From assembly GCA_012519465.1 (NCBI GenBank), contig JAAYQD010000180.1, positions 1 to 5,593 on the forward strand: DNA of 5,593 bases. Direction: 5' to 3'. The DNA is from Candidatus Cloacimonadota bacterium (GTDB lineage: Bacteria > Cloacimonadota > Cloacimonadia > Cloacimonadales > Cloacimonadaceae). Below are positions 1 to 5,593 of this stretch, one piece after another. Below the pieces are notes generated by a model, which did no database searches, was not told the DNA's origin, and worked only from the letters and a program-made list of their open reading frames with translations. Numbering within the stretch: the first letter of the stretch is position 1; the number at the start of each line of letters is the position of its first letter. Made by a program: the position numbers and the translations under genes.

Positions 1-678
1 GAGACCGTGTGGGAAATAGGCCCCGGAATGGGCATCCTCACCCAAGAGCTGCTAAAGTATCAACCCCGCCTGCTCGCTTTTGAGATTGATGGCATGCTAA
101 TCCCCCTTCTGGAAAAGCGTTTTGGGGATTCATTAGAGCTTATACATGGTGATATTTTACAGCAGGATTGGTCTGCTTTGATTGCTGGCAAAGAGCTAAA
201 ACTGGTATCCAACCTCCCCTATCAAATCAGCTCTCCCCTCTTGGAACTCTTACAGCGGCATCACCAGAGCTTCAAGCTATCTGTGCTGATGCTGCAGCGC
301 GAAGTGGCACACCGGCTCACTGCCTCCCCAGGCAGCAAGGCTTATGGTGCACTCAGTCTCAGGATGCAGCTCAATTTTGATATCGAAGTGGTGATGGATG
401 TATCCAAAGAGTATTTTGACCCCGTGCCCCAGGTGGATTCCAGCGTAGTGAGGATCATACCCCGGGCAATCCCAGCCCAGATCCAGAACCTGACCACCTT
501 CCACAGGCTTATCCGCATCGGCTTTTCCAGCAGAAGAAAGACCATGCGCAACAATCTCCTCCCCCACTATGATAAAACCACACTCCTAAGATTGCAAGAT
601 AGCTCCGGTATAGACTTGCAACGCCGGGCAGAGACGCTAAGTGAAGCTGAATTCGTCCTTCTTTCTGATTTGCTTTAG
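1..678 (+). CDS. ksgA: 16S rRNA (adenine1518-N6/adenine1519-N6)-dimethyltransferase, 5' partial
   Basis: This enzyme uses S-adenosylmethionine to dimethylate two adjacent adenines in the 3'-terminal hairpin of 16S rRNA late in small-subunit assembly. The frame is open from base 1, so the gene starts left of the window; 225 codons remain of a family usually about 260-280 residues, meaning only the N-terminal segment is missing. Visible motifs are the SAM-binding loop EIGPGMG (bases 16-36), an acidic E-I-D at the end of the second strand, the catalytic NLPY motif (211-222), the F-D-P-V-P-x-V-D-S-S segment, and the basic FSSRRKTMRNNL stretch typical of the C-terminal helical domain. The gene is intact to a TAG at 676-678. 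The GTG at base 7 lies inside the SAM motif and is not the true start. Its 3' end overlaps the next gene by 38 bases. Family assignment is secure. Confidence 0.96.
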   Translation, partial: ETVWEIGPGMGILTQELLKYQPRLLAFEIDGMLIPLLEKRFGDSLELIHGDILQQDWSALIAGKELKLVSNLPYQISSPLLELLQRHHQSFKLSVLMLQREVAHRLTASPGSKAYGALSLRMQLNFDIEVVMDVSKEYFDPVPQVDSSVVRIIPRAIPAQIQNLTTFHRLIRIGFSSRRKTMRNNLLPHYDKTTLLRLQDSSGIDLQRRAETLSEAEFVLLSDLL

Positions 679-2440
679 TCTGTTTGCCTCGCTATTGGCG
701 GCACAGAATAAAGAGCTGGAATTCTTCTTTTCCGACACTCAAAACGTGCGCAGCACCCAAAACGCCCTCAACTATCAAATCCTCTACAGCCCGCGTTCCC
801 TGATTGGTATCAAAGTAAATACCGGCACTGATGAACGGCTCACCTTTGCCCAAAGGAGCAGGCAGGCTTCTCTGCAAATGGATTGGCAACTGGGAGGCAG
901 GCTGTTTTCCCACTTCATCAATACAGGTTATGAATACTTTTACGATTCCAGCTCGCTGGAACAGGAGCTCTCCCCTTATCGCAATAAAACCGCCTTCCTG
1001 GGCTATGATCTGGAGTTTTCTCCCATGGATAGCCTTGCGCTCAACTTGGGTGGCAGCGCCATTATCAGAAGGGAGGAAGACCGCTATACTGCAGACAGGC
1101 TTCTAAAAAGTGACGGTTACCGCATGCAGGGAAGCATGAGGGCTGCATCTGGCTGGGGGGATGCCCAGTTTGGCATCAGAGCACATGTGGAAAGCAAAGA
1201 ATTGGATTGGGAAGCATATAGAAGAACCAATATTAGCGCCTGGACGGATTATGAGACTTACCAATTTCAATGGCAGCAAAGCTTTAACTGGGATTACAAC
1301 GAAGACGATCTCTATGTGTTGGAAATGCGCCATGGCGACAGACCTGAAGGCAATTACCGCTTTAGCGATATGCAAAAGCGCAATTCCATTGGCTACAATA
1401 GCTTTATGGAATACCGCCATCCTTCAGACTATGTGAGGATCACCTTTGCAGACATTTTCTGGCGCCGCTATCTCTCCATGCAGGAAAACGCCCCCCGCAA
1501 CAATACCGATTTGATAAACCAAACCAATCTGGATTTGGACGTTCAGCTCCACCCCCGCCTCTCCCTCAATAGCCGTGCCATGTATCATTACAGCTTGAAA
1601 GACTTCAGCTATCTGGGCAATACCCGCCACACCTCTCTGAGGGGATTATCCGCACGCTTGGGCTGGGAATATCTGCCTTACGACTCCCTTTTGGTACAGT
1701 ATTCCATCGATTTGCAGCGCAGCCTGTATCCAGAGGAAGATCATAAATGGGACAACGACCTGCGCACCAGCTCCCTCAGCTTTGGCGTGGTGCACTATTG
1801 GAAACAAAGGATGAGGCTGAGCACCTGGATTAATTGGAGCCTGAAAGATGATGTATATATCGATGGCATCCTCTCCTCAAACAACAAGCATATCAACAGC
1901 ATTTCACTGATGCCTGATTGCCGTATTCTCATCGGGGATAGGCTCAGCTTTAACCAATATTACAAGCTGCGCGCGGAATATACAGATTATATGTATGAGG
2001 GTAGAAACCGCAGCTTTTACCGGCACCTGGGCTATCGATACAGTCTTACTTTTGATAGCTTCCCTTTGGCTGCACGCAGTGGCAATCCCGTGTGGATGCT
2101 TCTGCCCTATCGTCAAGGCTATGGTAATGCAATATCGATGGAGCTTAGCTTTGGGTATGAGCAAAACGATTATGCCGATTCTATGGGCGAGTATTATCTG
2201 ATCAATTCCAAAAACAAGCGCTACTCCTCCGGGTTCCAGATCAAGCATGATATCGATTCCCTCTATTATATTGTGGAACCCAAATATTTTTGGGGCACCT
2301 GGCAGGAATATTCCCTGCTCCTGGGTTTGGCATGGCAGTTAAATCCACAATCCCTGCTGGAGTTTTCCCTAAACCCCATTGGCGAAAGCCTCAATTCATT
2401 GGAGTGGCGCAGCAGCATCAATCTCAGTTTGCGTTATTGA
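641..2440 (+). CDS. Exported protein, probable outer-membrane beta-barrel, function unknown
   Basis: I do not recognise a named family. The 599-residue product starts at GTG 641, the codon directly after an in-frame TAA; it is the only start that yields a signal peptide (M-K-L-N-S-S, hydrophobic core of about 13 residues, then L-A-A-Q near residues 19-22). No lipobox cysteine follows a cleavage site, so it is not an evident lipoprotein. The mature part has no long hydrophobic helix; it is rich in Tyr, Trp, Phe, Arg and Asp in alternating polar/nonpolar stretches separated by short polar turns, as in many-stranded outer-membrane barrels. The last residues S-I-N-L-S-L-R-Y end in an aromatic residue, as in the C-terminal signal read by the BAM complex. 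Translation starts within ksgA, suggesting co-transcription. No clear terminator hairpin follows. Barrel assignment is inferred from composition and ends; substrate or role is unknown. Confidence 0.8.
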   Translation: MKLNSSFFLICFSLFASLLAAQNKELEFFFSDTQNVRSTQNALNYQILYSPRSLIGIKVNTGTDERLTFAQRSRQASLQMDWQLGGRLFSHFINTGYEYFYDSSSLEQELSPYRNKTAFLGYDLEFSPMDSLALNLGGSAIIRREEDRYTADRLLKSDGYRMQGSMRAASGWGDAQFGIRAHVESKELDWEAYRRTNISAWTDYETYQFQWQQSFNWDYNEDDLYVLEMRHGDRPEGNYRFSDMQKRNSIGYNSFMEYRHPSDYVRITFADIFWRRYLSMQENAPRNNTDLINQTNLDLDVQLHPRLSLNSRAMYHYSLKDFSYLGNTRHTSLRGLSARLGWEYLPYDSLLVQYSIDLQRSLYPEEDHKWDNDLRTSSLSFGVVHYWKQRMRLSTWINWSLKDDVYIDGILSSNNKHINSISLMPDCRILIGDRLSFNQYYKLRAEYTDYMYEGRNRSFYRHLGYRYSLTFDSFPLAARSGNPVWMLLPYRQGYGNAISMELSFGYEQNDYADSMGEYYLINSKNKRYSSGFQIKHDIDSLYYIVEPKYFWGTWQEYSLLLGLAWQLNPQSLLEFSLNPIGESLNSLEWRSSINLSLRY

Positions 2441-2561
2441 AGCATCTGCAAACCATCCATAACAAACAGTCTGCTTGCTGCTCCTTTATCCTCTATTCAA
2501 AGATATTGATTGACGAAATGCACGCCTTTTTCAAAGTATATTGTAAGTAAGAATGTACAAA

Positions 2562-2567
2562 AGAGGA
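2562..2567 (+). promoter_or_regulatory. Shine-Dalgarno AGAGGA for the helicase stub
   Basis: AGAGGA lies six bases before the ATG at 2574. It decides that start over the upstream in-frame ATG at 2553 and shows that the stub once had a functional translation start. A possible TTGACG at 2510-2515 and TATATT at 2537-2542 are separated by 21 bases, too far for a standard sigma-70 pair, so I do not call a promoter. Confidence 0.55.
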
Positions 2568-2573
2568 TCCCTG

Positions 2574-2789
2574 ATGAATGTTTTTGAGCTGCGCGATAAT
2601 CTGATTGCAGATTACCAATCTTATATCAAAAGTAAAGATATCATCCACGCATATCAGTTTGTATGTGCACAAATTATTCGTTTTTTTGTGCACATGAGAT
2701 ACCATATATATAAAAAGCCCGTTTTTTTATACATATCACTGCTGATATATATAGAAAATCTAAAAATTTATATTTATGCATGCAAATAG
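2574..2789 (+). pseudogene. 5' stub of a DEAD/DEAH-box helicase-like gene
   Basis: The first 20 residues, beginning M-N-V-F-E-L-R-D-N-L-I and ending Y-I-K-S (2574-2633), match my memory of the N-terminus of long DEAD/DEAH-box helicases often found beside restriction or other defence genes, where the next residues are typically F-I-x-I-R-D. Here the similarity stops at Y-I-K-S. The frame runs on for another 51 codons into AT-rich DNA that encodes an odd, Ile/Tyr/Lys-rich tail with no known motif, ending at TAG 2787-2789. No Walker A, DEAD/DEAH or helicase C-terminal motif is present, so nothing catalytic remains; such helicases normally exceed a thousand residues. The ribosome binding site is intact, so a 71-residue peptide could still be made. 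Alternative: an unrelated small gene. The assignment rests on a 20-residue match recalled without a database search. Confidence 0.5.
2663..2695. repeat. Perfect 11-bp inverted repeat with 11-base loop
   Basis: ATGTGCACAAA at 2663-2673 is repeated as its exact reverse complement TTTGTGCACAT at 2685-2695. Each arm also contains the self-complementary octamer TGTGCACA, so the same octamer appears twice, 23 bases apart. It could fold as an RNA or DNA hairpin, or act as a paired site for a dimeric DNA-binding protein. No T-run follows the second arm on either strand, so it is not a standard intrinsic terminator. It lies just after the break in the helicase similarity. Confidence 0.7.
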
Positions 2790-2800
2790 AGCTATCTTGA

Positions 2801-3514
2801 AAACTGATTTCCGGTGAATCCGAATTCCGTAGACTCCCGGGTACAGTTCTCAAAAACGAACAAACCGGCCAAATCATCTATACACCGCCCCAAAACCACC
2901 AAGAAATCATTCAGCTGATGTCACATTTGGAAAAATATATCAATGTGGATAAAGAAAATAGCTTGGACCCCCTCATCAAGATGGCGCTCATCCACTACCA
3001 ATTCGAGAGTATCCACCCCTTTTACGATGGCAATGGACGCACCGGCAGGATCCTTAACGTTCTCTATCTTGTGCTCAAGGGTCTTCTGGATATCCCCGTC
3101 CTTTATCTGAGCCGCTATATCGTCAAAAACAAAGATGCATATTATACTTTCTTACAAAAAGTGAGGGATGAAGGCGCCTGGGATCAATGGGTTCTATTTA
3201 TGCTGGATGCCGTGGAACACACATCAATTCAAACTTTACACATAGTCCGTTCCATTGCATTGGCGATGCAGGAATATAAACACCGCATCCGTTCCAAACA
3301 TAAATTCTATTCTCAAGACCTCATAAACAATCTATTTTTCCACCCATATACCAAGATAGAATTTGTTATGAGTGATATCAAGGTGAGCAGAATAACCGCC
3401 ACAAAGTATCTTGACTTGCTTTACCAAGACGGCCTCTTGAAAAAAGAGAAACTCGGCAGATCAAATTACTATATCAACGTTGCCCTTTATGATATCCTCA
3501 CTACTCTGGAATAA
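2801..3514 (+). pseudogene. Fic-domain (AMPylase family) protein, 5' truncated; internal ATG at 2918
   Basis: Fic proteins transfer AMP (or related groups) from a nucleotide to hydroxyl side chains of target proteins. The catalytic motif HPFYDGNGRTGR is complete at 3014-3049, preceded by A-L-I-H-Y-Q-F-E-S-I and followed by the conserved LYLSRYI and YYTFLQKVRDEG segments. The C-terminal part (about 3340-3505) has a winged-helix look: V-S-R-I-T-A-T-K-Y-L-D-L-L then G-L-L-K-K-E-K-L-G-R and YYIN. The first ATG in frame is 2918 (198 residues, weak ribosome binding site), but family-like sequence, R-R-L-P-G-T-V-L then Q-T-G-Q-I-I-Y-T-P-P-Q, is encoded upstream back to about 2816. A TGA at 2798-2800 closes the frame and no ATG, GTG or TTG lies between. 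Relatives of this architecture are about 360-380 residues, so roughly 130 N-terminal residues, including the region where class II Fic proteins carry their inhibitory helix, are missing. No frameshift or stop interrupts the rest. Confidence 0.85.
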
Positions 3515-3533
3515 ACTTCTTGCCCATTAGCCT

Positions 3534-3562
3534 CCCTTGTACCACCCTTGTCTCTCCCTTGT
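3534..3562 (+). repeat. Three CCCTTGT direct repeats at exact 11-base spacing
   Basis: CCCTTGT occurs at 3534-3540, 3545-3551 and 3556-3562, each start 11 bases after the last. The second and third copies are in the left arm of the palindrome; the first lies just outside it. The reverse complement ACAAGGG is at 3578-3584 in the right arm. The regular period suggests growth by short tandem duplication, or sites on one face of the helix. Confidence 0.7.
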
Positions 3563-3588
3563 CGAGACAAAGGAGAGACAAGGGTGGT
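3541..3588. repeat. 48-bp near-perfect palindrome between convergent genes
   Basis: Left arm ACCACCCTTGTCTCTCC (3541-3557) pairs exactly with 3572-3588. After one C/A mismatch (3558 and 3571) the pairing continues with TTGTC (3559-3563) and GACAA (3566-3570) around a two-base centre GA. The stem is therefore 22 of 23 pairs. It sits 27 bases after the Fic stop and 98 bases after the RloB stop on the other strand, so transcripts of both convergent genes would reach it. There is no T-run on either side, so a classical intrinsic terminator is not evident; a bidirectional transcription or mRNA 3'-end barrier, or a member of a dispersed REP-like or non-autonomous repeat family, are the main options. 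Confidence 0.85.
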
Positions 3589-3648
3589 TAATAAGGAAGA
3601 AGAGGGGAAAGTACTCATGTGAAAGTGAAAGATGAAGAGGAATATCCC

Positions 3649-3686: not shown

Positions 3687-4292
3687 TTATTTATATTCTG
3701 ATATGATCTTGACCAAACGATAAACTCTGGTACCAATGCTTTGAAGAATTCTTTGATCTGGATCGATATCCAAATCCTCAGCATTCTGGGTGGCAAAGTC
3801 TGTTTTTTCAAAGTAGTTTTTTTCATAAGAGCGAGATGGGTTGTGTGTTTGAATTGCCTTGTTGATTTCTCTTTTGGAGCATAGGTTTGTTTGGTCTTGT
3901 ATTATTGACTGAGCATTGCGATAATGCAAAAGAAACCAAATCTCAAAACAAGGGCGCGAGAGTGCAATATAATAATTACGCCGTTCTGCCTTCTTTATCG
4001 ATGTTATCAAATTGGTTCCCCATTTGTCATAATCTATTACCAGCCAGTATTCATACCTTTTATACAATACGGGTTCCAGCTGTTTTCTTTGCTGCTCAAA
4101 TTCAATAACGTAATCCAGTACTGCCTTGGGGCTTGATTTACTGGAAGCCCTGTCGATAACTTGTACACTTGCCTGCGAGATTTTAAAATAATCGATGAAC
4201 TTTTTAAAGTATATCTGTTCAGTAACGCTGCCTTCAGTGAAGATAAAGATTTTGCGTGGTTTAAGGTCTTTTGCTTTACGGGTATATTTCAT
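3687..4292 (-). CDS. rloB: RloB-family protein, TOPRIM-like, partner of the upstream ATPase
   Basis: The product (201 residues from ATG 4292) has the three RloB landmarks: I-F-I-F-T-E-G-S-V-T-E-x-x-Y-F (glutamates 20 and 25), V-I-D-Y-D-K (aspartates 87 and 89) and S-R-P-C-F-E-I-W-F-L-L-H (residues 112-123). The early Glu and the D-x-D fit the acidic metal site of TOPRIM-like folds, so a nuclease role is plausible; I infer this. No signal peptide or membrane segment is seen, so it should be cytosolic. I chose ATG 4292 because AAGGA (4303-4307) precedes it by 10 bases; an in-frame ATG at 4310 would add six residues and overlap the ATPase gene by 11 bases but lacks a good ribosome binding site. 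Ending S-E-Y-K at 3687 appears natural. RloB was named from genes linked to type I restriction loci and is paired with an ATPase, as here. No hsd genes are in this window. Confidence 0.87.
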   Translation of the reverse strand: MKYTRKAKDLKPRKIFIFTEGSVTEQIYFKKFIDYFKISQASVQVIDRASSKSSPKAVLDYVIEFEQQRKQLEPVLYKRYEYWLVIDYDKWGTNLITSIKKAERRNYYIALSRPCFEIWFLLHYRNAQSIIQDQTNLCSKREINKAIQTHNPSRSYEKNYFEKTDFATQNAEDLDIDPDQRILQSIGTRVYRLVKIISEYK

Positions 4293-4299
4293 GATTACT

Positions 4300-5593
4300 T
4301 TATCCTTCATCTTTTATCATGGGCACTGCTCCATATAAACCTGCTAAATAGGCTTTCTGAAGAGTTTTATCGTTCCTCACTTTTGCATAATCATAAAGCG
4401 AATACAATTCTGATGCTTTTTTATAATTCTTTTTCACAAACCATATCGAATCCCTCCTCAAGAGTTCCACATCCATCAATGTGGCGTCGTGGGTGGTAAC
4501 TATCAGTTGTGATTGGTGTTTTTTGTTTGCCTTGAACATGGTTTTGATAAATAACTCCACGATATTGGGATGCAAACTTCTATCGAGCTCGTCAACCAGC
4601 ACAATGGCATCGTTCTGTACCAATGTAAGAATTGGAATTAAATCAAACATTCGATTTGTTCCATCTGATTCTTCGGATATCTTAAAACTTACAAATTCAC
4701 CATTATGGGGCATTTGATGGGATATGTTGATCTTGAATGCATCGCGAGCACCCTCGTGCAAGCGCACAGAATATCTATCCTCTTCCTTCACAGTGATATT
4801 CTTTATCATGTCCAGCTTTAGCTGGTCACGTAGCTCTCTGGGTACCATATCCAAAACCTCATCTGCTTCCATTTTCTCGATACTTATATCGTCAATTCCA
4901 AAATCACACAAATTTAAGATCTTCTTGTATTCATCCAACAGATCTTCATTATTGATAAGAATGTTATATGATTGTAACTCTGTGTAGGGATAGATCACCA
5001 CGATTTTTTTGAACCAGTTGTATATATCACTCAAGATATCTACGTTTCTATCAATCAATTCAGTTAAGAAAAGCTTGTTTTCAGGCGTTCCTTTCAGGAT
5101 ATAATCAAAGAACATATCACTTTCATATTTCTTGTATTTCTCTCCGTATTCTATCCTGTTTTTCTTCGTCTGATCATAGGTCCTTTGATATATTTTATGC
5201 TCACCGGTGGAGTTATTATGCCAAAGCCATTCACGCATGATATTGTTGTTCTTGATTTCAAACCCAAATTTGTATATTTTGCGCTTGATTAGCATCTCAA
5301 ACTCAAATAAACTGGGTTTATCTGGGCAATTGGGACAGAGTTTGAAGTATGTAGTTCTATTCCACAAGGGATTGGGCTCTTGTAACACAATCGCTTTAGC
5401 ATAATGGATCGCTTTGATAAGATTGGATTTACCAGAGGCATTGGACCCAAATATAAAAGCCGACTTTAGTATATTTGGGATATGGCGGCTATTGGATAGC
5501 CACAGCTGCTCCCTGAGGTCTCTTGCCCTGGAGGCAAACATATCCAACGATACTCTGTCATTGAAAGAAAGACAGTTCTGAACTGAAAATCTA
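4300..5593 (-). CDS. RloA-like AAA/ABC-type ATPase (RecF/OLD-like), 5' partial
   Basis: This is a cytosolic ATPase of the SMC/RecF/OLD-like group (AAA_15/AAA_21 type). The frame stays open through the right edge; a TTG at 5547 could pose as a start, but upstream codons encode R-F-S-V-Q-N-C-L-S-F-N-D-R-V-S-L, the usual first strand, so the true start lies only a few codons beyond 5593. Counting from 5547: Walker A GSNASGKS at residues 34-41, ABC-like signature S-E-E-S-D-G-T-N-R near 291-299, Walker B A-I-V-L-V-D-E-L-D at 314-322 (catalytic Glu 320), and switch histidine in V-T-T-H-D at 353. The middle (about 100-260) is the variable lid or arm region. All ATPase residues are intact. A C-P-N-C-P motif at 71-75 is a small oddity that could bind metal or mean nothing. 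It is followed at once by rloB, and probably acts as the sensor or regulator of that effector, as in AbiL- or PARIS-like pairs; that role is inferred. Confidence 0.9.
   Translation of the reverse strand, partial: RFSVQNCLSFNDRVSLDMFASRARDLREQLWLSNSRHIPNILKSAFIFGSNASGKSNLIKAIHYAKAIVLQEPNPLWNRTTYFKLCPNCPDKPSLFEFEMLIKRKIYKFGFEIKNNNIMREWLWHNNSTGEHKIYQRTYDQTKKNRIEYGEKYKKYESDMFFDYILKGTPENKLFLTELIDRNVDILSDIYNWFKKIVVIYPYTELQSYNILINNEDLLDEYKKILNLCDFGIDDISIEKMEADEVLDMVPRELRDQLKLDMIKNITVKEEDRYSVRLHEGARDAFKINISHQMPHNGEFVSFKISEESDGTNRMFDLIPILTLVQNDAIVLVDELDRSLHPNIVELFIKTMFKANKKHQSQLIVTTHDATLMDVELLRRDSIWFVKKNYKKASELYSLYDYAKVRNDKTLQKAYLAGLYGAVPMIKDEG
4303..4307 (-). promoter_or_regulatory. Ribosome binding site AAGGA of rloB inside the ATPase gene end
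   Basis: On the minus strand the ATPase gene ends GAT-GAA-GGA-TAA (stop 4302-4300). AAGGA within these codons lies 10 bases before ATG 4292. Ribosomes finishing the ATPase would uncover or re-use this site, which implies translational coupling and matched production of the two proteins. Confidence 0.55.

Follow-up and report, generated by a model that had tools for sequence, protein, structure and literature searches.

A 5,593-base contig of a Candidatus Cloacimonadota bacterium (the window, analysed here whole) carries at its end an ABC ATPase gene followed by an RloB-family gene, and profile searches give good support for regarding this pair as a new, divergent and transferable member of AbiL, a kind of system already known. 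The window is contig C33 of assembly G000 (1.99 Mb, 406 contigs); other genomes and loci are cited by G and L numbers. With PADLOC models the ATPase matched AbiLi (PDLC02335, 278.5 bits, residues 1–428), while the RloB protein matched AbiLii (PDLC02337, 79.3 bits) as its sole match at E ≤ 0.001. ORF55 and ORF56 of the Lactococcus phage proPhi7, a pair annotated ‘abortive phage resistance protein’, gave 254.0 and 64.4 bits with these two models, so that by profile the window pair is as good an AbiL as the lactococcal one. The best AriA model (PDLC02980) reached 126.7 bits on the ATPase, under half of the AbiLi score. In Pfam the partner matched PF13707 (RloB; 111.5 bits, E 7.9e-32) and no other family, and the ATPase matched AAA_21 (125.4 bits, E 6.2e-36); no NCBIfam model matched RloB, and the NCBIfam matches of the ATPase were weak and below cut-off. 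An earlier note on this DNA, made from the letters alone, had placed both genes correctly, and its proposal of a phage-defence module is supported by the family assignment, though not as a kind of system still to be tested, since the profiles name the pair AbiL. AbiL was described in 1999 as abortive infection (cited in PMC10440598), and RloB, AbiLii and the Toprim domain of OLD have already been linked by HHpred (PMC10440598). The parts of the pair are as follows.

4300–5593, minus strand: abiLi, SMC/Rad50/PtuA-type ABC ATPase, 430 residues in view (AAA_21, PADLOC AbiLi, AlphaFold2)
3687–4292, minus strand: rloB/abiLii, RloB-family protein, 201 residues from the likelier ATG (PF13707, PADLOC AbiLii, AlphaFold2)
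4303–4308, minus strand: GAAGGA, a box resembling a ribosome-binding site, within the last ATPase codons and 10 nucleotides before the RloB ATG

The genes touch on the same strand, ATPase first (stop codon 4300–4302, RloB ATG 4290–4292), a spacing that suggests a two-gene operon in which the GAAGGA box may couple translation of RloB to that of the ATPase. The longest RloB frame spans 3687–4310 (minus strand, 207 residues), but the start is more likely at ATG 4290–4292, because close relatives share it and the GAAGGA box precedes it; a database copy also has 201 residues. The ATPase frame (4300–5592, minus strand) continues past the contig end at 5593 and, because complete relatives begin M-I/L-I-x-F, about three N-terminal residues are probably absent.

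Catalytic residues and predicted folds

The residues expected of an ABC ATPase and a Toprim nuclease were located by alignment at the following codons (RloB in the 207-residue numbering).

5425–5448, minus strand: ATPase Walker A, GSNASGKS, residues 49–56
4660–4671, minus strand: ATPase ABC signature-like E308 S309 D310 G311
4588–4593, minus strand: ATPase Walker B acid and catalytic glutamate, D334 E335
4489–4491, minus strand: ATPase switch histidine, H368
4233–4235, minus strand: RloB E26, Toprim motif I acid
4026–4034, minus strand: RloB D93-x-D95, Toprim DxD motif, at the end of strand 86–93 of the model
3942–3944, minus strand: RloB E123, candidate metal-B ligand in the signature S-x-P-x-F-E-x-W-x-x-x-H

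G49, N51, G54, K55, S309, G311 and D334 were invariant in 73/73 aligned ATPases, and E308, E335 and H368 were kept in 72/73. The earlier note had called the ATPase intact: its motifs (Walker A, signature, Walker B with glutamate, switch histidine) are all present, but intactness does not hold for a frame that leaves the contig some three residues short. The acidic residues of RloB are indeed intact, and conserved across 104 aligned sequences: position 26 was E in 78 and D in 26, D93 was present in 103, D95 in 100 (with E in the other four) and E123 in 103. W125 and H129 occurred in all 104, and E31 was less constant (89/104).

AlphaFold2 modelled RloB with a mean predicted local distance difference test score (pLDDT) of 92.0 and a predicted template modelling score (pTM) of 0.86, and the ATPase with 89.1 and 0.89. 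In the RloB model the Toprim acids occur in the expected order, E then DxD, at strand ends, and among Foldseek candidates re-aligned by VIA-align the nearest folds were OLD Toprim domains, at modest Z. The earlier note had named a partner without Toprim-like fold or metal site as the outcome that would speak against it; the metal residues proved conserved, and a Toprim-like fold is tentatively indicated at those modest scores. AriB and RNase M5 were not among the 50 VIA-align rows for RloB, nor AriA among the 50 for the ATPase, but as these rows hold Foldseek candidates only, the absences are uninformative. Foldseek of the RloB model against the PDB returned nothing at E ≤ 0.001 (top row, a TIR domain), and a PDB sequence search with the protein gave no match up to E 10. 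The best PDB match of an RloB profile (E 0.48) was to calmodulins through their D-x-D pattern, and was discarded as not meaningful. The ATPase fold resembles Rad50 heads and PtuA, which its sequence profile also matches.

The pair in other genomes

Scanning genomes with an alignment of RloB, with one short signature as the pattern, gave at least 453 relatives, the best 80 of which were kept as loci and are not a random sample. An ATPase of the same family ended between −300 and +200 bases of the RloB frame start, on the same strand, in 75/80 loci; in four more it overlapped RloB further or ended 371 bases off, and one locus had no ATPase. The order ATPase then RloB was found in 79/80, under titles including Chloroflexi, Chitinophagales, Planctomycetota, Chlamydiae, Nostoc and archaea. 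The loci keep a single gene order over a range that takes in Cloacimonadota, Chloroflexi, Cyanobacteria and archaea. The 75 strict pairs include three with a short ATPase frame (L113 and L149, both cut by the start of the stretch, and L131, with 229 residues) and one with a 90-residue RloB frame (L135). In genomes related to the window's, 42 ATPase matches yielded 30 loci, the window's own included, and RloB lay downstream on the same strand in 27 of these 30, sometimes short (L051) or split into two short frames (L048); it was not found beside the ATPase in L037 (genome G062), L046 and L054.

The orphan AbiLi ATPase of G062 (L071, 9438–10712), 49% identical to that of the window, has no RloB in the next ~950 bases; AbiEi/AbiEii and RhuM genes lie in its vicinity, as does a frame that is IS110-like by eye. 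In a small 4863-base ColRNAI enterobacterial plasmid (L166) the only gene following the ATPase is a hypothetical one of just 369 bases, which may be a truncated partner or another kind of partner.

In these loci the AbiL-type pair is usually stand-alone, without type I restriction genes nearby. EcoKI queries detected type I hsd genes in 5/80 stretches, a lower bound, as other type I families may escape such queries and just 31 stretches are 16 kb or longer. The nearest frame of 120–600 residues on each side of the 80 loci gave a set of 132 neighbours (63 upstream, 69 downstream; others dropped), of which 2/132 held the HsdM N-terminal family by Pfam. As the earlier note had remarked, no hsd gene is in view on the window's contig, which ends at the ATPase. 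Nor was there a constant third gene: the 132 neighbours held 178 Pfam families, none in more than four, and the commonest PADLOC assignment (E ≤ 1e-10) was mad2 (5/132), followed by type I methylase models (2/132). An IMG/VR scan with a single RloB sequence gave nine pattern matches and no confirmed relatives.

Transfer and inheritance

Close pairs were present in 4/96 other genomes searched (G032, G018, G029 and G019). G032 and G018, which belong to different genera, have in common a 2609-base block of 96.6% DNA identity, outside which the fetched stretches share only a second, 244-base copy of the block edge (in L024). The pair proteins of these two genomes are 99.3% and 95.0% identical, compared with 56.4% for RsmA; this is recent transfer. 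In the window's own lineage, the sister species G004 matches window 1–2443 at 93.3%, and its 19.9 kb fetched lack window 2444–3515 and everything beyond 3601. Since, within the limits applied, the G004 genome returned neither RloB nor the ATPase, the pair is lineage-specific here. When the far side of the island was sought in the window's genome, DNA of the sister's next genes hit almost only a dispersed repeat (40 of 128 candidates scored) and the sister's next protein was unmatched; the last 194 bases of the contig were found nowhere else.

Among the relatives, L024 has a GmrSD-type gene as a neighbour and L023 a DDE transposase, and the orphan ATPase of G062 has AbiE and RhuM genes beside it. 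In a Klebsiella P2-like phage the ATPase and RloB genes lie between a replication gene and the portal gene, a site that is a P2 defence hotspot (PMC9122126). The earlier note would have counted against itself homologues of the pair placed consistently in non-defence, vertically inherited core loci; mostly they are not so placed, the pair being patchy and transferred, but a different AbiL pair is inherited in three species of the window's genus (G002, G003 and G005), where it occupies one syntenic locus.

L198, 6567–8454: second AbiL type
L199, 4649–6560: second AbiL type
L200, 311–2204: second AbiL type

An extra frame of 384 residues follows this locus in G002.

Divergence of ATPase and RloB

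RloB diverges faster than the ATPase. Between the window and G032 the ATPases are 75.3% identical and the RloB proteins 52.7%; over 251 locus pairs with ATPase identity of 55–99% the median RloB deficit was 6.0 points (98/106 loci gave a usable pair; L101/L040 and L137/L043 are each the same sequence twice). The deficit was 18.3 points in 14 pairs within the window's relatives versus 5.6 in 237 others, in a grouping of our own whose pairs, 14 Cloacimonadota pairs included, are not independent. Records titled Candidatus Cloacimonadota include exact copies of two of these relatives' loci. The window pair fits this pattern of slow ATPase and fast putative effector.

At the syntenic locus of G002, G003 and G005, three flank proteins are 83–94% identical with synonymous divergence (dS) of 0.67–0.80, and the ATPases 78–81% identical (dS 0.94–1.14). 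RloB is 65% identical (dS 1.11) between G003 and G005, and 43.5–48.3% identical, with saturated dS, against G002. In 150-base steps, identity between G003 and G002 was 82% before the ATPase gene end, 71% at its last ~100 bases and 51–67% across RloB, returning to 75% about 1.1 kb further on; for G003 and G005 the values over the ATPase end and RloB were 88, 87 and 65–81%. Because saturated synonymous sites lie inside conserved flanks, replacement of the effector in G002 is suggested, although three genomes do not prove it. A tentative reading, which we hold to be less likely than not, is that AbiL in this lineage may be a conserved ATPase platform whose RloB effectors are swapped along with ~100 bases at the 3′ end of the ATPase gene. 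Several observations speak against such exchange: blastn gives a single 6.4-kb alignment of the G003 and G002 loci (81% overall) that covers most of RloB, one 150-base step inside the ATPase likewise falls to 65%, and the ATPase's own dS exceeds that of the flanks. The blastn alignment and the elevated ATPase dS, in particular, hold our confidence down. If true, an effector swap could alter the nucleic-acid target and leave the sensor unchanged, and would offer a natural comparison for finding the substrate of RloB.

The ratio of nonsynonymous to synonymous rates (dN/dS) was 0.07 and 0.10 for the ATPase in two pairs of relatives, indicating constraint. Between G032 and G018 that of RloB was 0.89, with 10 nonsynonymous and 3 synonymous differences against 3 and 15 in the ATPase (Fisher p 0.0012). 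In G029/G019 RloB had 4 and 9, the ATPase 8 and 19 (p 1.0). Diversifying selection on RloB was dropped as an explanation, the G032/G018 signal being absent from this second pair.

Mode of action

We think it probable that ATPase and RloB act together to abort phage infection by a PARIS-like mechanism. In PARIS, AriA holds AriB and frees it on sensing a phage anti-restriction protein (PMC11455837), and AriB dimers then cut tRNA, probably by two-metal catalysis (PMC11455837; PMC12409363). By analogy, and in line with the earlier note's proposal that the ATPase senses phage and licenses RloB, an ATPase oligomer would bind RloB and silence it until the ATPase detects a protein of the phage or a lesion that the phage has made, which would alter the complex; RloB would then cut a host nucleic acid by two-metal catalysis, RNA such as tRNA being the likeliest substrate; and this cutting would stop growth and phage production. 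The weakest step is the RNA target, on which we regard the chances as about even. Direct evidence on the AbiL mechanism is thin. AAA partners neutralise their toxins (PMC10440598) and a Fusobacterium AbiLii halted the growth of Escherichia coli (PMC3985639). Weighing against the PARIS-like scheme, PMC3985639 reports no antitoxin effect of AbiLi on that toxic AbiLii and no toxicity of lactococcal AbiLii, and the syntenic AbiL pair of the three congeners is inherited.

The nearest folds to RloB belong to OLD nucleases, which are DNA cutters (PMC7049728), and the ATPase resembles Rad50 heads; both would suit a constant ATPase–RloB complex that attacks phage DNA directly, in the manner of OLD or Gabija, without killing the host. 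We judge this unlikely, given that AbiL was described as abortive infection (PMC10440598), that an AbiLii is toxic to E. coli (PMC3985639) and that the Toprim effector of PARIS cuts tRNA (PMC12409363). Still less probable is a toxin–antitoxin or addiction module serving its own persistence with little role in defence: plasmid tests do show AAA/Toprim pairs behaving as antitoxin–toxin couples (PMC10440598), and distant ATPase relatives, all <60% identical, occur on 176 plasmid records, but copies carried by phages sit at accessory sites, which include the P2 defence hotspot, and PADLOC files the family as anti-phage. That the window copy is a decaying, nonworking remnant would accord with the deletion scar beside it (below) and with an ATPase gene cut by the contig end, its promoter out of view; it seems highly improbable, as both frames are open and the checked catalytic residues are kept, and the ATPase constraint noted above argues the same way, although it was measured in pairs of relatives, none being close enough to the window copy.

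The PARIS-like abortive mechanism is the one we prefer. The conserved acids and the S-x-P-x-F-E-x-W-x-x-x-H signature name the residues for mutagenesis. No AbiL trigger, target or structure was found in titles and abstract openings of the open-library literature, taken in part from the best-ranked portion of larger result sets, and AbiL seems to be among the less explained abortive-infection systems.

Neighbouring genes and repeats

The remainder of the window holds four features.

1–678: rsmA, cut at its 5′ end
641–2440, plus strand: frame of 599 residues, no Pfam match
2574–3514, plus strand: broken region, deletion scar of a helicase/Fic defence cassette
3516–3601: palindromic intergenic repeat of 86 bases

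The scar begins with the first 20 residues of a helicase of ~1,725 residues (DruE-like by PADLOC, MZB by Pfam, as scanned in L193) and continues as an AT-rich stretch with stops, then some 230 C-terminal residues of a SoFic Fic protein. The helicase–Fic–helicase cassette is whole in G020, G012, G025 and G027 (L193–L196), where a DruE-like helicase, SoFic and a DpdE-like SNF2 helicase (which in L193 scores 815.5 bits against DpdE) form a candidate defence operon of Cloacimonadota-like genomes. In L193 it is preceded by a mad1-like helix-turn-helix gene, L196 having a comparable frame; in L194 a DrmMI/Eco57I-like methylase comes after it. We know of no single named system of this composition, no literature search on it having been made. 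Scar and repeat together (window 2473–3606) recur in G004 at a different place and in shorter form (L192, 6494–7047; G004:C74); this difference in placement means either movement of the unit or a chromosomal rearrangement that separates the two species.

The repeat has at least 80 matches, on both strands, in the window's genome (40 of 89 candidates scored) and at least 80 in G004 (40 of 133 scored), one weak match in G001 and none in G002, G003 and G005, and is probably an element of the repetitive extragenic palindromic (REP) or miniature inverted-repeat transposable element (MITE) kind, nearly confined to the two sister species. The 599-residue frame overlaps the end of rsmA and has no NCBIfam match either; it is matched in 5/6 genomes of the genus, the window's included (96% identical in G004, 47–48% in three others), adjoins rsmA in all three relatives with that side fetched, and looks like a putative outer-membrane barrel.

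Relation to known systems

OLD nucleases (Ts OLD, Bp OLD, P2 Old) are the closest VIA-align neighbours of the window RloB, whose acid order, E then DxD, parallels E377/D431/D433 of Ts OLD (PMC7049728) in a mapping of our own. OLD, however, is one fused chain, and membership was rejected because the ATPase and Toprim parts here are encoded in two separate frames. The fold and sequence profile of the ATPase match PtuA of Septu and retron PtuA/PtuB systems; PtuB, however, is an HNH nuclease (PMC10440598), and Septu was set aside because the adjoining partner is RloB and has no HNH match in Pfam or PADLOC.

PARIS pairs an ABC ATPase with a separate Toprim nuclease, as is predicted for the window, and is the best mechanistic model (PMC12409363, PMC11455837), but AriB is a DUF4435 protein (PF14491; PMC9122126), whereas the window partner matches only PF13707 in Pfam. 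Membership of PARIS was rejected on that ground, there being no DUF4435; a scan for that family gave no match in the window's own genome, one of the 97 searched.

The name RloA, and the type I-associated Rlo genes, come from Campylobacter. The window pair has the RloB family in common with the RloA/RloB genes of type I restriction loci (RloB is named in PMC10440598); no hsd gene lies on its contig, which ends at the ATPase.

The AbiL of Lactococcus lactis and proPhi7 has the same order, an AAA_21 ATPase then RloB, both matched by the PADLOC AbiL profiles, and its ATPases align end to end with that of the window. Its proteins are just 26–30% identical to the window's, the window RloB has one additional residue in the E-G-x-T-E loop, and the lactococcal genes lie on a plasmid or prophage, whereas the window pair adjoins rsmA in a Cloacimonadota-like genome.
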